A DNA stretch of 15,897 nucleotides from Azonexus sp. (GTDB lineage Bacteria > Pseudomonadota > Gammaproteobacteria > Burkholderiales > Rhodocyclaceae). The stretch spans positions 1 through 15,897 of the forward strand of contig JAKLLI010000026.1 in assembly GCA_023150195.1 (NCBI GenBank), given 5' to 3'. The notes under the pieces are model-generated. The model was given only the letters and a program-made list of their open reading frames with translations. It did no database searches and was not told where the DNA came from. Below are positions 1-10,056 of this stretch, in pieces. Every line of letters starts with the position of its first letter. Position 1 is the first letter of the stretch. A program made the translations under genes and the position numbers.

Positions 1-1477
1 GCCACCACCACAACCAGCGAAGCTTGCGTCGTCCCTCAAGCGTCTTATCCATCCGCTTTGCGAGCCGTTTGGAAAAATAGCTGTCGTACGTTGGATCGTA
101 CGGATTCGCTTCCCCCATGATCTTAGTGTGGGGCCTTTTCAGGTACCCAGCCAAGACCGGTAGTAACTTGTCCTGATCCGCAAAAAGCCAGTCACGTCCC
201 TTGATGCGTTTGAAGTAACGCTGTTTGATCCACCGCTTCCCCTTGTTCGGGTGACGACGGCACGCCCAGCGCCACAGCGCTTCCCAGATTTGATGGTCGC
301 ACTTCGCAAACGTCCGGCTTGCCATCTGACTTCGGTGATAGTTGGCCCACCCCCTGATTACCGGGGTCAGCTTCTCGATCACGTCTATCTGTCTGGCAGT
401 CTTTCTTTCGCGCAACAGGCTGCGGATTTTCCCCAGAAACGCCTTGATATTCTTTTTCGATGGCTGGGTGACCAGCATTCGATTGAGCATCCTGACATTC
501 CACCCCAAGAAGTCGAACCCCTCCGTCACATGCGTGATTTTGGTTTTCTTCTCCGAGAGGATGAGGCCCCGGGTGGCCAGAAATTTCTCCACCAAGGGTT
601 TGACCTTCTCTTCCAGATACTCTTTCGAGCTACCCGTAATGATGAAGTCGTCCGCATAACGCACCAGATTGACCTTTGCCGCACGCGCATCCCGCACCGT
701 TCGGAACAGTGTAGTCAGCTCATGCTGCAGGCCATCCAGCGCCAAGTTTGCCAAAACCGGGGAAATGATTCCTCCCTGTGGCGTACCTGCTTGCGTTGGG
801 AATAGCCTTCCCGTTTCGATAAAACCTGCTTTCAGCCATTTCCGGAGGATGCTCTTGTCCATGCAGACATTGGCAACCAGCCAGTCATGACTGATATTGT
901 CAAAACAGCCTTTGATGTCACCTTCCAGTACCCATTTCGGGGAGGCTTTCCGGCCCAGCACGTTTCGCACTTGTTCGATGGCGTCTGCCGTCGAGCGCTC
1001 ACGTCGGAATCCATAGGAATGATGATCGCCAGTTGTTTCAGCGACAGGCTCCAGCGCCAATAAATACAGCGCTTGCATCGCCCGATCACGCATGGTGGGT
1101 ATACCCAGTGGGCGTTTATCACCGTTTGCTTTCGGGATGTAGATGCGACGCAGCGGTAACGGCTTATATCTCTTGTTGCCAAGATCAACGACCGCCTTCC
1201 ACTTCGCCTCCGGGGTATCCCAAGTTTGTTGATCCACACCTGGAGTTTTCCGGCCTTGATTTTCCGTGACCCGCCGAACTGCCAGCGCTTTCGCGCTGCT
1301 GGATTTGGTCAGGAGTCTCTGCAGGGCGCGAACCTTCCGCCATTCCCCTGCTTTTGCTGCCTTCGTAATACGTGTCTGTAACCTCGCGACAACTTGATAA
1401 GCCTTGACCCATTGAATCTCGTGCCAAGACTGCCAAGCCGTAGAGGCGACATCGCAATTAAACTGCGTTGCGTCCAT
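1..1477 (-). CDS. ltrA: Group II intron reverse transcriptase/maturase, C-terminus outside window
   Basis: This intron-encoded protein binds the intron RNA, helps it fold and splice, and reverse-transcribes it during homing. The frame is open for 492 codons from an ATG at 1477 to the window edge, with no frameshift. The start follows a GGAGG Shine-Dalgarno. Visible parts: an N-terminal RT0-like region containing TPGVD (about 78-82), the RT palm with EGDIKGCFDNI (D187 as first metal aspartate), TPQGGIISP (232-240), and YADD (274-277) carrying the catalytic aspartate pair. The maturase region (about 320-390) contains FDFLGW and RGWANYHR. A basic tail ends in a Trp-rich stretch at the edge; in related proteins this is where an HNH endonuclease domain begins, so one probably lies just outside. 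All visible RT catalytic residues are intact, so the element may be active. The gene starts only 17 nt after the CCA end of a tRNA. Confidence 0.95.
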   Translation of the reverse strand, partial: MDATQFNCDVASTAWQSWHEIQWVKAYQVVARLQTRITKAAKAGEWRKVRALQRLLTKSSSAKALAVRRVTENQGRKTPGVDQQTWDTPEAKWKAVVDLGNKRYKPLPLRRIYIPKANGDKRPLGIPTMRDRAMQALYLLALEPVAETTGDHHSYGFRRERSTADAIEQVRNVLGRKASPKWVLEGDIKGCFDNISHDWLVANVCMDKSILRKWLKAGFIETGRLFPTQAGTPQGGIISPVLANLALDGLQHELTTLFRTVRDARAAKVNLVRYADDFIITGSSKEYLEEKVKPLVEKFLATRGLILSEKKTKITHVTEGFDFLGWNVRMLNRMLVTQPSKKNIKAFLGKIRSLLRERKTARQIDVIEKLTPVIRGWANYHRSQMASRTFAKCDHQIWEALWRWACRRHPNKGKRWIKQRYFKRIKGRDWLFADQDKLLPVLAGYLKRPHTKIMGEANPYDPTYDSYFSKRLAKRMDKTLEGRRKLRWLWWW

Positions 1478-1494
1478 ATCAACCTCCGGTTGTA

Positions 1495-1569
1495 TGGAGC
1501 GGGCGAAGGGAGTCGAACCCTCGTCTCTTGCTTGGGAAGCAAGGGTAATAGCCGTTATACGACGCCCGC
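1495..1569 (-). tRNA. tRNA-Gly(CCC), complete, carried inside the intron
   Basis: On the minus strand the 75 nt from 1569 to 1495 fold as a full cloverleaf with encoded CCA. Acceptor GCGGGCG pairs with CGCCCGC. The D arm is GTA/TAC. The anticodon stem is CTTGC/GCAAG around loop TTCCCAA, giving anticodon CCC. The T arm is GAGGG/CCCTT around TTCGACT, the discriminator is T, then CCA. The T arm and acceptor resemble E. coli glyU (tRNA-Gly CCC). The first 15 bases equal those of the interrupted tRNA-Gly at 2462-2500, and the five bases just before both genes are also the same, suggesting a common origin. The D loop is one base longer and the anticodon stem differs. The gene lies between the intron core and ltrA, in the position of domain IV. 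All stems pair, so it looks functional. Confidence 0.95.
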
Positions 1570-1611
1570 TCTGAACCTTTGGAGGAAGACGCAACTTTTC
1601 CCCGGGCGGGG

Positions 1612-1617
1612 ATTGTA
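1612..1617 (-). promoter_or_regulatory. Probable extended -10 promoter for the intron-carried tRNA-Gly
   Basis: Minus-strand TACAAT preceded by TGC forms an extended -10 (TGnTAnnnT type). It is followed at once by the GC-only stretch CCCCGCCCGGGG, the kind of discriminator found in stable-RNA promoters under stringent control. The tRNA begins about 42 nt downstream. No good -35 hexamer is visible 16-18 bp upstream (CGCAAA at 17 bp). If real, it lets the carried tRNA, and possibly ltrA, be transcribed independently of the host tRNA promoter at 2520-2548. Confidence 0.5.
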
Positions 1618-1972
1618 GCACCAACCCCCTCGGGTTTGCGATTACACAGACTCTTCTCACGAAGAGTCACCAGATAGAAGTCAGCACGCTTTCACGTCAG
1701 GGCAATCGTTTCATCCCCTATCCCGTCCATTACAGACTGGCATTCGCTTTTTCTATCCTCCTCTACCTGCATAGGTAAAGCGACCCTTGCGGGGCACCTT
1801 GTTCTTAAACATATAAGCGATAACCCTCCCAACCGATCTCGGGATCGGCCGGGGTGTTATGGATTGCCTAATTTTTAACGAACGCCTATTCAGGCTTACC
1901 ACGTTCCGTACAAGTAACAGAGTTGGGACGGTCCCGCCTTTCCACCGGTGATGCTATGTCAGCGTGCCCACA

Positions 1973-1978
1973 CCAAGC
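1973..1978 (-). other. EBS1 of the intron
   Basis: Minus-strand GCTTGG is the exact complement of CCAAGC, the last six exon bases (2462-2467) before the intron. IBS1 therefore includes the last two anticodon bases and the 3' side of the anticodon loop. The site lies about 484 nt into the intron, late in domain I, where EBS1 is expected. Confidence 0.7.
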
Positions 1979-2043
1979 AGGTGGACAACCGATCACGTGC
2001 CTTTTGGCAGAGCCCGATACTGCAAGTTGCTTTTGGCTCATCA

Positions 2044-2048
2044 AGCTT
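2044..2048 (-). other. EBS2 of the intron
   Basis: Minus-strand AAGCT is complementary to AGCTT at 2469-2473, one base upstream of IBS1 in the exon. It lies about 66 nt 5' of EBS1, a normal EBS2-EBS1 distance in domain I. The match is only 5 bp, so this assignment is weaker than EBS1. Confidence 0.55.
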
Positions 2049-2461
2049 TACGGTGTTTATCAGCGATTCACTTACGTTGACCATCCAACCCAGCCTAGCG
2101 CCTCATCCGGATGCAACTTCCGGAATCACGCCAGTCCCCTCACGGGGCATGACGTACCCCTTGAGGTGGCTACATTGTCAGAGCGCTTAGTACCCCACCG
2201 TTGCCAGTGACGCACTGCTCCTAGGCTACGAGGTGCTGAAACCTCGGTCCTGTCAGTATCGATTTGGACGGTTGCATACAGCCACAACCACTCAAACCCG
2301 ATTGTTCCGCAGAACAATTACTTATACGGCTTTCGCCGTCTCCGCAAAGCCCCTTTGCGAGGTATTGCAGGCCACTGCAAGCAGTGGTGAATGTGGCGTG
2401 ATTCGTCAGGATAAAGCGCCTGACAGGAGGGAACGCACACTCCATACGACACGTGTCGCAC

Positions 2462-2500
2462 GCTTGGGAAGCTGAGGTATTACCATTATACGACGCCCGC
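2462..2500 (-). tRNA. tRNA-Gly(CCC) 5' exon, interrupted by the group II intron
   Basis: Minus strand 2500 to 2462 gives the first 39 bases of a tRNA-Gly: acceptor strand GCGGGCG, D arm GTA/TAC, 5' anticodon stem TCAGC, loop TTCCCAA (anticodon CCC), then GC, after which GTGCG of the intron begins. By standard numbering the break falls after position 40, inside the 3' anticodon strand. The remaining half (expected to start TGA to complete the stem) must lie beyond the window, after intron domain VI. The gene is either restored by splicing or dead; the second tRNA-Gly(CCC) inside the intron would cover a loss. It is preceded by a good promoter. Confidence 0.9.
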
Positions 2501-6297: not shown

Positions 6298-7480
6298 GAC
6301 CCCAGCGGCCAAAATCTTCAGCACGCAGGATTTGTCCGTAGTGATTACCCACGGTGCGCGCCAGATCGACGCGAACAGGGGCAACGTATTGTCGCCGCCC
6401 ACTGTGATAGATCACATTGACCACCGGGCTGAGCAAATTGTCAGGGTGCAGGGACTCAACAACGGCCAAATGCCCGCTCTCCAGCAACACCAGCGTCCCT
6501 ACGGGATAAATTCCCAAGGTCTTGACCAAGCCTGCCACCAGATTCGGGTCATACTGCGCACCCCCCTGCTCATACAATTGTCGCAGTGCTTCGGTCGGCG
6601 ACATGGCAGCACGGTAGGGGCGATGCGAAGTCATCGCATCATAGGTATCAACAATCGCTGCCAGCCGACCGGCAAGCGATATCTCGTCTCCGGCCATGCG
6701 GTAGGGGTAACCACTGCCGTTGTAACGCTCGTGATGTTCCAGCACCACGGCGACGGTAGTTTCCGGCAAGCTGGTCGTGGCTTCCAGCACGGCCAGCCCT
6801 TCTTCGACATGCCCTTGCACAATGCTGAATTCCTGCTGCGAAAGCTGTCCCCGCTTGTCAGTCAGACGGGCATCAATGGCCGCATGGCCAATGTCCTTGA
6901 GCATCGTGCCCAGCGCCATTTTTTCCAGCTCAGGCGCGCCGACACCTTGCTGGCGGCCGAGCGCGATGATCAAGCCGGCCGTGGCCACCGCATGTTCGGT
7001 CGCGTAAGCATCAAGGCGCTTCAGGCGGGCCAGCGGGACCAAGGCATCGGGATTGCGCGCAACTGACTCCATCATCTTGCTGATCACCGGTTCCAGACAG
7101 GCCACTTCTACCGCTCGCCCGACACGTGCCGCCAGCGTCAATTCATCGAGCAACTGCACGCCCTGCTGGAGCAAGCGCCCGGCCCGGCGACGCTCTTCGC
7201 CCAGCGATACCGTCGCCGGCGCCGGCTTGCATGCCACCGGCTGGCGGGCAATCCGCTGGGCGATATCGTGAAGGCCCGCCGCGGGTGGTGGCGGCAGGTC
7301 GATGCCTCGCGCGGTATCGATGCTGACTTCCTCGATACCGGCGGCAATGAGCTTGCGCACGTGGTCCAGGCTGTCCACCTTGAAGCGGCGTCGCCAGACG
7401 CTGTGCGCCAGCCACGACTGGTGCAAATCCACGACATACATGCCGGGCAGCAGGTCATGGACGGACAGTTTCCGGATCAC
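6269..7480 (-). CDS. DUF3391 / HD-GYP domain protein with degenerate HD motif
   Basis: A 403-residue protein: N-terminal DUF3391 (about 1-130, containing LLPGMYVVDLHQSW) then an HD-GYP domain (about 140-350). HD-GYP proteins usually hydrolyse the second messenger cyclic di-GMP. Seen: H163 (EHAVATAGLI), H224, HH 249-250, GYP 257-259 in HHERYNGSGYP, and D278 in VDTYDAM. The namesake HD pair reads K195-D196 (MLKDIG; codon AAG at 6896-6898) in place of HD, and the usual DRPYR reads HRPYR. One metal ligand is therefore lost, so it may bind rather than cleave c-di-GMP. The start is GTG, overlapping the upstream stop as GTGA (7477-7480), which implies translational coupling. The 3' end overlaps mutY by 29 bp. 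Confidence 0.92.
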   Translation of the reverse strand: MIRKLSVHDLLPGMYVVDLHQSWLAHSVWRRRFKVDSLDHVRKLIAAGIEEVSIDTARGIDLPPPPAAGLHDIAQRIARQPVACKPAPATVSLGEERRRAGRLLQQGVQLLDELTLAARVGRAVEVACLEPVISKMMESVARNPDALVPLARLKRLDAYATEHAVATAGLIIALGRQQGVGAPELEKMALGTMLKDIGHAAIDARLTDKRGQLSQQEFSIVQGHVEEGLAVLEATTSLPETTVAVVLEHHERYNGSGYPYRMAGDEISLAGRLAAIVDTYDAMTSHRPYRAAMSPTEALRQLYEQGGAQYDPNLVAGLVKTLGIYPVGTLVLLESGHLAVVESLHPDNLLSPVVNVIYHSGRRQYVAPVRVDLARTVGNHYGQILRAEDFGRWGLSPTRWQPA

Positions 7481-8073
7481 TGCGCGGCTTGACCGCTGCG
7501 TTCGGCCGCCGCTTTTCTGGCCGCCAGGGCGGCCGCATGCTCGGCTTGTTTGCGGGCCACACGGGCTTCGGCTTCCTGCTTGCGCCGGGCGCCTTCCGCA
7601 GCCCGCCGGGCCTTGTCGTCCACCTGTTGCTGGTGCTGCTGCGCATCCTGCGCCTGAGCCGCCTCGACGGCCGCCGCGCGTTGTGCCAGTTCAGCCGCCC
7701 GCGCCGGTTGGGCAGCGGCCAGACGGCGTTCGCGGTCGACCTGCTGTTCCTTCTGAATTTCGCGCGCCAAGGCGAGGCCGGTGTTTTCCGTACTGCGCCC
7801 GGCACGCGTCTGTTCCAGCATCGCCCGCCGGGCATCCTCGACGCAAGCCGTCACGAAAAACCGGGTTTCGCAGGCGGTGCGCTGGCTGGCGAATTGCGCT
7901 TCGGCTTCCTCGCGTCTGGCCTTGCCCTGCGCTTGCAGTTTTTCCGCACGAGCCATGCGTTCCTGCCAGTCGAGCACTTGCTCCGGCGTCGGCGCACTAT
8001 CGGCCAAGGCTGCCGACGAAGCGCCCAGCCCGGAGAGCAGACAAACAGTCAGCAAGAAGAGATTTCGTCGCAT
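7477..8073 (-). CDS. Secreted Ala/Gln/Arg-rich coiled-coil protein, function unknown
   Basis: A 198-residue protein. The ATG at 8073 gives a clear signal peptide: MRRN, a hydrophobic core LFLLTVCLLSGLGASSAA, and likely cleavage after ALA near residue 24. The frame stays open upstream, but that stretch lies inside yheS on the other strand and lacks a secretion signal. The mature part is almost wholly charged helix: repeated A/E/R/K/Q with a heptad look, so an extended periplasmic coiled coil is likely. Two cysteines in CETRFFVTACVEDARR could form a disulfide; this stretch recurs in betaproteobacterial periplasmic proteins of unknown function. It is the first gene of an operon with the HD-GYP gene (GTGA overlap). 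TolA- or envelope-scaffold-like roles are possible but unproven. Confidence 0.8.
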   Translation of the reverse strand: MRRNLFLLTVCLLSGLGASSAALADSAPTPEQVLDWQERMARAEKLQAQGKARREEAEAQFASQRTACETRFFVTACVEDARRAMLEQTRAGRSTENTGLALAREIQKEQQVDRERRLAAAQPARAAELAQRAAAVEAAQAQDAQQHQQQVDDKARRAAEGARRKQEAEARVARKQAEHAAALAARKAAAERSGQAAQ

Positions 8074-8132
8074 GCGAGGGTTGGCCGGCGGCTGGCAAAA
8101 CGGGAAGTGCGAGAATTTTAGCAGCCCACCGC

Positions 8133-8138
8133 TATAAT
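8133..8138 (+). promoter_or_regulatory. -10 box of yheS (near-leaderless)
   Basis: A perfect TATAAT ends 10 bp before the yheS ATG. Transcription would start about 3-5 nt before the start codon. There is no Shine-Dalgarno (preceding bases GGGCCCTC), and the -35 region (CGAGAA at 17 bp) is weak. Confidence 0.6.
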
Positions 8139-8148
8139 TCGGGCCCTC

Positions 8149-10056
8149 ATGATTGCCCTGCGCCAACTCACTTTTGCCCGTGCCGGCCGCCCGCTGGTTA
8201 TCGATGCCAGCCTGCAAATCCATCCTGGCTGGAAAGTGGGCGTGGTCGGTGCCAATGGCTGCGGCAAATCCAGCCTGTTTGCCCTGATTGGCGGTGAATT
8301 GCACGCCGAATCCGGCGATGTGTCGATTCCCACCGCCTGGCATATCGCCCGCGTCGCGCAGGACACGCCGGCACTTCCCAACCCGGCACTCGATTTCGTG
8401 CTTGATGGCGATGTGGAACTGCGGCGAATCGAAGCCGAGCTCGTGGCCGCCGAAGCCCGGGGCGACGGCGAAGCGATTGGCCAGCTTCATGCCCGTTACG
8501 GCGACATTGGCGGCTATGCGGCCAAGGCGCGTGCGGCGGAGGTGCTGCATGGTCTGGGCTTTACCGATGCCGATTTCAGTCGCCCGGTCGCTGATTTTTC
8601 CGGAGGCTGGCGTGTCCGCCTCAATCTGGCGCGTGCGCTTTCCTGCCGTGCCGACCTGCTGCTGCTCGACGAACCCACCAATCACCTCGATCTGGATGCC
8701 GTGCTCTGGCTGGAGCAGTGGTTGAAAAGCACCCCGGCCACGCTATTGCTGATTTCCCACGACCGCGACTTTCTCGATGCGGTCGTCGGACAGATCATCG
8801 CCATTGATCAGCAACGTTTGAGCATGACCAGCGGCGGCTATTCCGATTACGAACGCGCCAAGGCCGCGCGACTGGCCACCCAGCAATCCGCTTACGAAGC
8901 CCAGCAACGCGAAATTGCCCATCTCACGCGCTTCGTCGAACGGTTCAAGGCCAAGGCCACCAAGGCCCGTCAGGCGCAAAGCCGGGTGAAGATGCTGGAA
9001 CGCATGGAAATCGTTGCGGCAGCGCATGTCGATTCGCCCTTCCATTTCAGCTTCCGGGCACCGGAAAGCCTGCCGGATCCACTGCTGGTCATGGAAAAAT
9101 CCGGCGCGGGTTATGTGGACCGCAAGATTCTGGAAAACATCTCCCTGACCCTCAGGCCGGGTTGCCGGATTGGCTTGTTGGGCCGCAACGGGGCGGGGAA
9201 ATCCACCCTGATCAAGCTGCTGGCCAAGGCCATCCCGGCCACGGGCGGCGAGCGCAAGGAAGCCAAGGCACTGAAAATCGGCTACTTCGCCCAGCATCAA
9301 CTGGAACAGCTACGGCTTGACGAATCGCCTTTGCAGCACATGCAGCGCCTTGAACCGCTCACGCCCGAGCAGGAATTGCGGGACTACCTCGGCGGCTTCG
9401 ATTTCCGTGGCGATATGGCCACCCGTGCTGTCGCCCCCTTCTCCGGCGGCGAAAAATCCCGCCTCGCGCTGGCCTTGCTGATTCGTACCCGCCCCAACCT
9501 GCTGCTGCTCGACGAACCCACCAACCATCTCGATCTGGAAATGCGCGAGGCGCTAACCTTCGCCATGCAGGATTTCGAAGGGGGCATGGTCATCGTGTCG
9601 CACGACCGCCATCTGCTGCGCACCTGTGCCGACGAACTGCTGCTGGTGGCGGATGGCAAAGCCACCCCTTTCGATGGCGATCTCGACGACTACGCTGCCT
9701 GGCTGGCGGCGCAGCGTACGGCAGAAAAAGCGCCGGAGCCCGATGCGGCAGCCGAAAAGAGCGAACGTCTGCAGCAACGTGCGGATGCCAAAGCCAGCCG
9801 CCAGGCACTCCTTGCCGAGCGCCGCAAACTGCTGAAAGACATTGAAAAGCTGGATACGCAACTGGCCCGACTGCACGGGGAAAAGGCGGCACTCGATGCC
9901 CAATTCGCCGACCCGGATTTTTATGCCACGGTCGACCGCATCAAAAGCGAAGAAATGCACCGCCAGGCCGCGATGCTCAGCGAACAGATCGATACGATTG
10001 AACTCCAGTGGCTGGAATTTCACGAAACGCTGGACGCCTTGCCGACAGCGGACTGA
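8149..10056 (+). CDS. yheS: ABC-F family ATPase YheS
   Basis: A soluble twin-ATPase ABC-F protein with no membrane domain; members act on the ribosome. It has 635 residues, and length and sequence closely follow E. coli YheS. First cassette: Walker A GANGCGKSS (34-42), signature FSGGWRVRLN (from 150), Walker B LLLLDEPTNHLDL (from 170) and switch SHDRDF. A P-site tRNA interaction-type linker with KAKATKARQAQSRVKMLERM follows (about 267-286). Second cassette: Walker A GRNGAGKST (345-353), signature FSGGEKSRLA, Walker B LLLLDEPTNHLDLEM and SHDRHL. A charged C-terminal coiled-coil extension makes up the last ~90 residues. All catalytic motifs are intact. The ATG at 8149 is only 10 bp after a perfect -10 and lacks a Shine-Dalgarno. 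Confidence 0.94.
   Translation: MIALRQLTFARAGRPLVIDASLQIHPGWKVGVVGANGCGKSSLFALIGGELHAESGDVSIPTAWHIARVAQDTPALPNPALDFVLDGDVELRRIEAELVAAEARGDGEAIGQLHARYGDIGGYAAKARAAEVLHGLGFTDADFSRPVADFSGGWRVRLNLARALSCRADLLLLDEPTNHLDLDAVLWLEQWLKSTPATLLLISHDRDFLDAVVGQIIAIDQQRLSMTSGGYSDYERAKAARLATQQSAYEAQQREIAHLTRFVERFKAKATKARQAQSRVKMLERMEIVAAAHVDSPFHFSFRAPESLPDPLLVMEKSGAGYVDRKILENISLTLRPGCRIGLLGRNGAGKSTLIKLLAKAIPATGGERKEAKALKIGYFAQHQLEQLRLDESPLQHMQRLEPLTPEQELRDYLGGFDFRGDMATRAVAPFSGGEKSRLALALLIRTRPNLLLLDEPTNHLDLEMREALTFAMQDFEGGMVIVSHDRHLLRTCADELLLVADGKATPFDGDLDDYAAWLAAQRTAEKAPEPDAAAEKSERLQQRADAKASRQALLAERRKLLKDIEKLDTQLARLHGEKAALDAQFADPDFYATVDRIKSEEMHRQAAMLSEQIDTIELQWLEFHETLDALPTAD

Follow-up and report, generated by a model that had tools for sequence, protein, structure and literature searches.

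Why should a group II intron that breaks a tRNA gene carry, within its own body, a complete copy of the very tRNA that it breaks? Interruption of bacterial housekeeping genes by group II introns is reported to be infrequent (PMC6003770). The question is raised by the window considered here, a stretch of 15,897 nucleotides from Azonexus sp. that makes up the whole of contig C179 in a MAG of 425 contigs and 77% completeness. Here we describe the anatomy of this locus, compare it with its relatives, and weigh the explanations that might account for the presence of the second tRNA.

The interrupted gene, its intron and the carried tRNA

The features needed for the argument all lie on the minus strand and are given in the order in which that strand is read:

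2462..2500, minus strand: 5' half of the interrupted tRNA-Gly(CCC), 39 bases representing tRNA positions 1-40 (junction common to the relatives)
2473-2469, minus strand: IBS2, AGCTT, in the last bases of the interrupted 5' half
2467-2462, minus strand: IBS1, CCAAGC, likewise in the last bases of the 5' half
2461, minus strand: 5' splice site and intron base 1, GTGCGAC (from the sequence)
2099..2247, minus strand: group II intron core, RF02012 group-II-D1D4-7 (Rfam, 111 bits against a cut-off of 34)
2044..2048, minus strand: likely EBS2, AAGCT, complement of IBS2 (from complementarity alone)
1973..1978, minus strand: likely EBS1, GCTTGG, complement of IBS1 (from complementarity alone)
1495..1569, minus strand: carried (cargo) tRNA-Gly(CCC), complete, with CCA encoded (ARAGORN; Rfam, 58.4 bits against a cut-off of 29)
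1483..1487, minus strand: GGAGG, presumed to resemble a ribosome-binding site, between cargo and ltrA (from the sequence)
2..1477, minus strand: ltrA, group II intron reverse transcriptase/maturase, truncated by the contig end (domain and family matches)

A first-pass annotation of the window had read this same order, from the first 40 positions of a tRNA-Gly(CCC) through an intron start, a ribozyme core and a whole tRNA-Gly(CCC) to a maturase, and the order holds on the minus strand. The start, GTGCGAC, is of the GTGYG type; the core is matched by an Rfam model; and the carried tRNA does lie between core and ltrA, 17 nt ahead of the start codon (1495-1569 vs 1477). It is the one tRNA that ARAGORN reports in the window in all, and it has T29 and A41 where the interrupted gene has A29. 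The ltrA product contains RVT_N, RVT_1 and GIIM domains and matches TIGR04416 with 381 bits (cut-off 300), and the ltrA of relatives extends into an HNH domain. In the window the ltrA reading frame runs off the contig end, past which domains V/VI and the second half of the interrupted tRNA would be expected; consequently, the evidence for these parts comes from relatives. Within the window's own genome there was no match to the D5 model, nor was the 3' part of the intron found elsewhere when the related locus L046 served as query.

Around the carried tRNA, the sequence from 1478 to 1680 (minus strand), up to and across the cargo, folds better than its shuffled versions with a z of -3.9, a value that includes the tRNA itself. 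Hairpins ahead of the cargo recur among the relatives. No consistent promoter box was found there: TANNAT is present in 20 of the 40 sequences taken from ahead of the cargo, and its position varies. In the window, mutY and a flavin reductase gene lie near the tRNA; the same two genes stand near the tRNA-Gly(CCC) of three maturase-free genomes of the same genus, where the tRNA is uninterrupted.

A clade of introns at a single base of tRNA-Gly(CCC)

Comparison of 80 related loci with ltrA separates 42 that belong to a tRNA-Gly(CCC) clade from 38 that do not. The 42 share insertion at the identical base of tRNA-Gly(CCC), with the 3' half downstream, and their hosts are mostly named as beta- and gammaproteobacteria. 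The maturases of L056 and L057 are identical; of these two loci, one lies in a Planctomycetota-labelled MAG contig that is probably misbinned and the other in a Proteobacteria MAG. In the maturase tree the clade forms 41 rows (40 loci and the window) with a support of 100/100, L084 (frameshifts) and L087 (short) having been left out of the tree and assigned to the clade by their tRNA parts alone. Across the 100/100 branch lie 38 rows, of which 23 are strictly at the groEL stop-codon site; a looser groEL label fits 37 rows of the tree, including these 23. The closest maturase to that of the window is that of L046 (Azonexus sp. R2A61), with 97% identity.

The pairing of tRNA and ltrA first noticed in the window recurs widely. 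ARAGORN finds an intact tRNA-Gly(CCC) directly ahead of ltrA in 36 of the 80 loci, all of them in the clade, with the anticodon CCC in 36/36 and full acceptor and T stems in every one. No tRNA other than Gly(CCC) was found by ARAGORN within 1.5 kb of ltrA in any of the 80, and none of the 38 loci outside the clade (0/38) has a tRNA near the ORF. The tRNA 5' half, ending CTTCCCAAGC immediately before the intron, was read in 35 of the 42 clade loci (in L023 by eye); it was also found in L084 and, for the split locus L045, on its second piece, L183. Downstream of the ORF, the 3' half comes next in 39 of the 42, and in L041, L055 and L058 a match to the T arm plus acceptor sits further downstream. 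Domain V/VI (RF00029) was present in 8/8 clade loci given to Rfam, as well as in L066 from the groEL side. The first-pass annotation had made the placement of the tRNA inside the intron depend on domains V/VI and the tRNA 3' half lying beyond ltrA, and in the relatives this is where they are.

Several members depart from the common plan. In L084 (Duganella sp. CF517) the maturase gene is frameshifted and the carried tRNA is intact; in G159 (L175) intron and cargo are present and ltrA is cut off near the contig end. We had considered L058 (Solimonas sp. SE-A11) a dead intron and rejected this, as D5/D6 and the 3' half lie downstream past an extra ORF. This ORF, between ltrA and domain V (6715-7143 in L058, with a matching region in L055), has no Pfam match in L058. 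In L041, at about 6690-9000, domain V is seemingly interrupted by the likely start of a second group II intron (GTGCGCC...), and there is an additional D5 match at 9002.

The carried copy differs from its target

The insertion falls between tRNA positions 40 and 41, and the anticodon-stem pair 29:41 (-12/+1 with respect to the insertion) straddles it. EBS1 (GCTTGG) complements IBS1 (CCAAGC), which includes two anticodon bases, and EBS2 (AAGCT) complements AGCTT at tRNA positions 29-33, a fit that would explain the choice of the CCC isoacceptor.

Cargo and exons could be compared in the 33 of 42 clade loci in which both exon halves and the cargo are readable. The cargo is identical to its own interrupted tRNA in none of them (0/33) and differs from it at 29:41 in 28. 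Specifically for L034, L059 and L077, this pair is the sole difference, changed on both sides such that the stem remains paired; L030 is changed at 31:39 instead, and in four of the 33 (L022, L028, L043 and L050) the cargo shows no change between -12 and +1. At occupied sites, A29 is the base in 33/36 and T41 in 30/33; three are T29/A41, and that pair is therefore no absolute bar to insertion. Among 37 cargos, T29/A41 occurs in 23, G29/C41 in 10 and A29/T41 in 4, and these last four look like targets. T41 is also the base in 127 of 133 CCC tRNA rows from family genomes without the maturase, among the matches listed and with the rows related to one another. (The 133 are the 150 listed less 11 of ltrA genomes and less G167, G067, G159, G228, G197 and G130; the rows of G228, G197 and G130 are not tRNAs, and that of G063, a tRNA-Gly(CCC), is counted.) Pairing with EBS2, scored in 33 of 36 loci (none was obtained for L047, L049 and L050), is better for the occupied site than for the cargo in 20, equal in 11, some of these via G-U, and worse in 2. 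To judge from these comparisons, the cargo is altered at the target in most members and would be a poor target for its own intron.

The carried tRNA is not inherited strictly with the intron. Divergence of cargo and maturase shows a rank correlation of 0.02 over 528 pairs, on which grounds co-inheritance was rejected; since the cargo sequence does not follow the maturase, the cargo gets exchanged. Indeed, one cargo sequence is found with differing exon tRNAs (e.g., L024, L026, L031 and L033). Moreover, three cargos are identical to a tRNA that is broken at a different locus, that of L077 matching L056/L057, that of L046 matching L030 and that of L050 matching L043, which suggests that a former cargo can turn into a later target, or that host tRNAs can turn into cargo.

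Copy number of tRNA-Gly(CCC)

A pattern search for CCC tRNAs found the cargo to be the only tRNA-Gly(CCC) in 40 of the 42 host genomes; the two hosts without a match are those of L032 (N run) and L087 (contig start). In 28 of 30 fetched loci ltrA starts about 30 nt past the pattern match, the remaining cargo matches were tied to intron loci by coordinates or belong to split introns, and further matches in G036, G041 and G008 are not tRNAs according to ARAGORN. A closer look at nine genomes (BLAST with the native tRNA, ARAGORN on the 30 best matches) gave the cargo as the sole CCC tRNA in 9/9, both exon halves in 7/9 and a tRNA-Gly(UCC) in 8/9.

Within the family sample, the maturase occurs in 14 of 199 genomes and the CCC pattern in 175, nearly always in one copy. 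The earlier suggestion that the target is possibly essential is among the weaker parts of that interpretation: the pattern is present in 150 of 164 near-complete family genomes, and 14 of the 164 (e.g., G043, G066 and G092) gave no match. The tRNA-Gly(UCC) could read GGG, and the CCC tRNA may be dispensable where the UCC tRNA is present, as it may be in those 14 genomes.

Split introns and relics

Six of the 42 clade loci lack an intact tRNA beside ltrA. L032 has an N run inside the tRNA, and L087 starts within the ORF. For the other four the cargo is found elsewhere in the genome: L051 starts within the ORF at a contig end, with its cargo on L128, right ahead of an ltrA start, and in L045 (Thauera propionica), L055 (Solimonas fluminis) and L048 no more than the cargo 3' end precedes ltrA. 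The intron 5' part with the cargo lies 21.6 kb from the ltrA part in Thauera propionica (L183 and L045), 88.7 kb from it in Solimonas fluminis (L182 and L055), and on a separate contig in the third case (L184 and L048). Tyrosine integrase genes adjoin the cargo in Thauera propionica and Solimonas fluminis. Given these genes and the cargo 3' end left at ltrA, genomic islands appear to have integrated in the carried tRNA, using its 3' end as attachment site and thereby splitting the intron. In both of these genomes, no CCC tRNA other than the cargo was found.

Two genomes retain only remnants. G167 (100% complete) still has the cargo and roughly 90 bp of intron, flanked on either side by transposase-type genes, and neither ltrA nor an exon half was found; in G067 (96% complete) about 300 bp of core, the cargo and an ltrA stub are left, and no exon halves were found. 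Neither genome yielded a CCC tRNA apart from the cargo. We infer from this arrangement that the carried gene probably works in place, and the two relics are the best evidence to that effect. Three standalone cargo-like tRNAs (L177-L179, in G052, G125 and G201) were considered as further relics and rejected, having little or no intron flank; these uninterrupted tRNA-Gly(CCC) genes may have served as sources of cargo or have undergone conversion by it.

What the carried tRNA may be for

We put at a little over two in three the probability that the element is a self-rescuing homing retroelement: a group II intron that interrupts tRNA-Gly(CCC) behind base 40 and holds a target-altered replacement tRNA-Gly(CCC) in its domain IV. 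Self-rescue had been offered from the window as the simplest model, and with the relatives at hand it is the best-supported reading, the cargo being the only CCC tRNA in 40 of 42 hosts and outliving the intron in two relics. The carried tRNA likely takes over from the interrupted gene, insofar as gene content and sequence can tell. Under this model, intron RNA and maturase would recognize the anticodon arm of the resident tRNA-Gly(CCC) via EBS1/IBS1 and EBS2/IBS2, and the intron would retrohome into it. The cargo would be part of the intron transcript, from which RNase P and 3' processing would release it, leaving the host a CCC-reading tRNA, and splicing may also restore the exon tRNA. Homing into the altered cargo would be poor, an expectation that, like retrohoming and release, is drawn from the anatomy; the intron would decay later and the cargo would remain as the resident gene.

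This reading must be weighed against others. Splicing could be the main source of tRNA-Gly(CCC), with the cargo as a second source for dosage or slow splicing. Conservation of the exon halves is good, 27 of 33 exon tRNAs having all five anticodon-stem pairs (against 24 of 36 cargos), so splicing may still supply the exon tRNA, and D5/D6 were present in each of the eight clade loci searched. However, the relics G167 and G067 lack the exons but still have the cargo, the two parts of the intron are 21.6 and 88.7 kb apart in two other genomes, and dosage does not explain the changes at 29:41. We accordingly regard splicing as an unlikely main source.

The position of the tRNA, ending 17 nt ahead of ltrA in the window and just ahead of it in 36 loci, would also suit a processing device, in which cleavage by RNase P and at the tRNA 3' end would release an ltrA mRNA that has a short leader. 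Any tRNA would serve this end, yet the anticodon is CCC in 36/36, matching the interrupted gene, and the relics retain the tRNA without ltrA; that processing is the main role is quite improbable. More improbable still is a tRNA captured once by chance and kept as a neutral passenger. The free exchange of cargo, in which any of several sequences will do, is compatible with this, but a passenger would not be expected in every fully readable clade locus, with full acceptor and T stems in all 36, and as the only CCC tRNA found in 40/42 hosts. Finally, although the window comes from a fragmented MAG and ends inside ltrA, an assembly artefact or chimeric contig is refuted. Neither chance nor assembly error can account for an array that recurs in 36 of 80 related loci, and the array is present in single-contig genomes (G003/CP054864.1, G114 and G181) as well as in isolates, among them Azonexus sp. 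R2A61 and Rhodanobacter thiooxydans.

The self-rescue reading is directly testable with the tRNA pairs of L034, L059 and L077, which differ at 29:41 alone. If true, it would explain how a retroelement persists in a tRNA gene of which its hosts usually have one copy, and it would offer a way for a mobile tRNA gene to take the place of the host's own. More generally, the clade points to a way around the housekeeping-gene barrier: insertion plus a spare copy.

Comparison with known systems

The closest maturase relatives in the sample, on the opposite side of the 100/100 branch, are the groEL stop-codon introns of Azotobacter vinelandii and relatives. They have the same Rfam core and D5 as the tRNA-Gly(CCC) clade (L066) and, like it, are site-specific in a housekeeping gene, but their target is groEL and no tRNA was found near the ORF, whereas the target in the window is tRNA-Gly(CCC). 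According to PMC4465626, the A. vinelandii intron belongs to a subset that is monophyletic and was described by Michel et al., 2007. The first-pass annotation had claimed that a tRNA as cargo in a bacterial group II intron was novel; the literature searched contradicts this nowhere and contained no description of such a cargo, though Michel et al., 2007 (Biochimie 89:542), which is cited for this lineage, may contain some of it.

The chloroplast trnK intron with matK is also a group II intron with a maturase within a tRNA gene (PMC4424553). It differs from the tRNA-Gly(CCC) intron in its dependence on splicing. To our knowledge, it carries no tRNA. Genomic islands, too, use tRNA genes as integration sites without depriving the host of a functional tRNA, whose 3' end they restore by site-specific recombination. 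The tRNA-Gly(CCC) intron, in contrast, disrupts the anticodon stem and brings an entire second gene.

The nearest likeness in strategy may be found among engineered home-and-rescue and cleave-and-rescue drives, which likewise break a host gene and bring a target-altered copy (PMC7968924 and PMC7951863), and for this reason the intron is likened to them as a natural counterpart. It carries a copy of the gene that it interrupts, and the copy is altered at the target (at 29:41 in 28 of 33 loci, at 31:39 in L030). The intron differs from these drives in being natural, bacterial and guided by the RNA of a ribozyme, in having a tRNA as target, and in that its rescue is inferred. We would accordingly regard the tRNA-carrying element as a variant of the group II intron whose strategy resembles that of such drives. 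A broader and more tentative proposal, to which we give somewhat less than even odds, is that of a natural bacterial home-and-rescue drive racing its own target: the element would break a single-copy tRNA gene and supply a recoded, poorly hit copy, and the cargo of a dead element would become the resident tRNA, to be attacked by later elements with other cargo. Self-rescue, if true, would mean that the rescue principle of engineered drives also occurs in nature.
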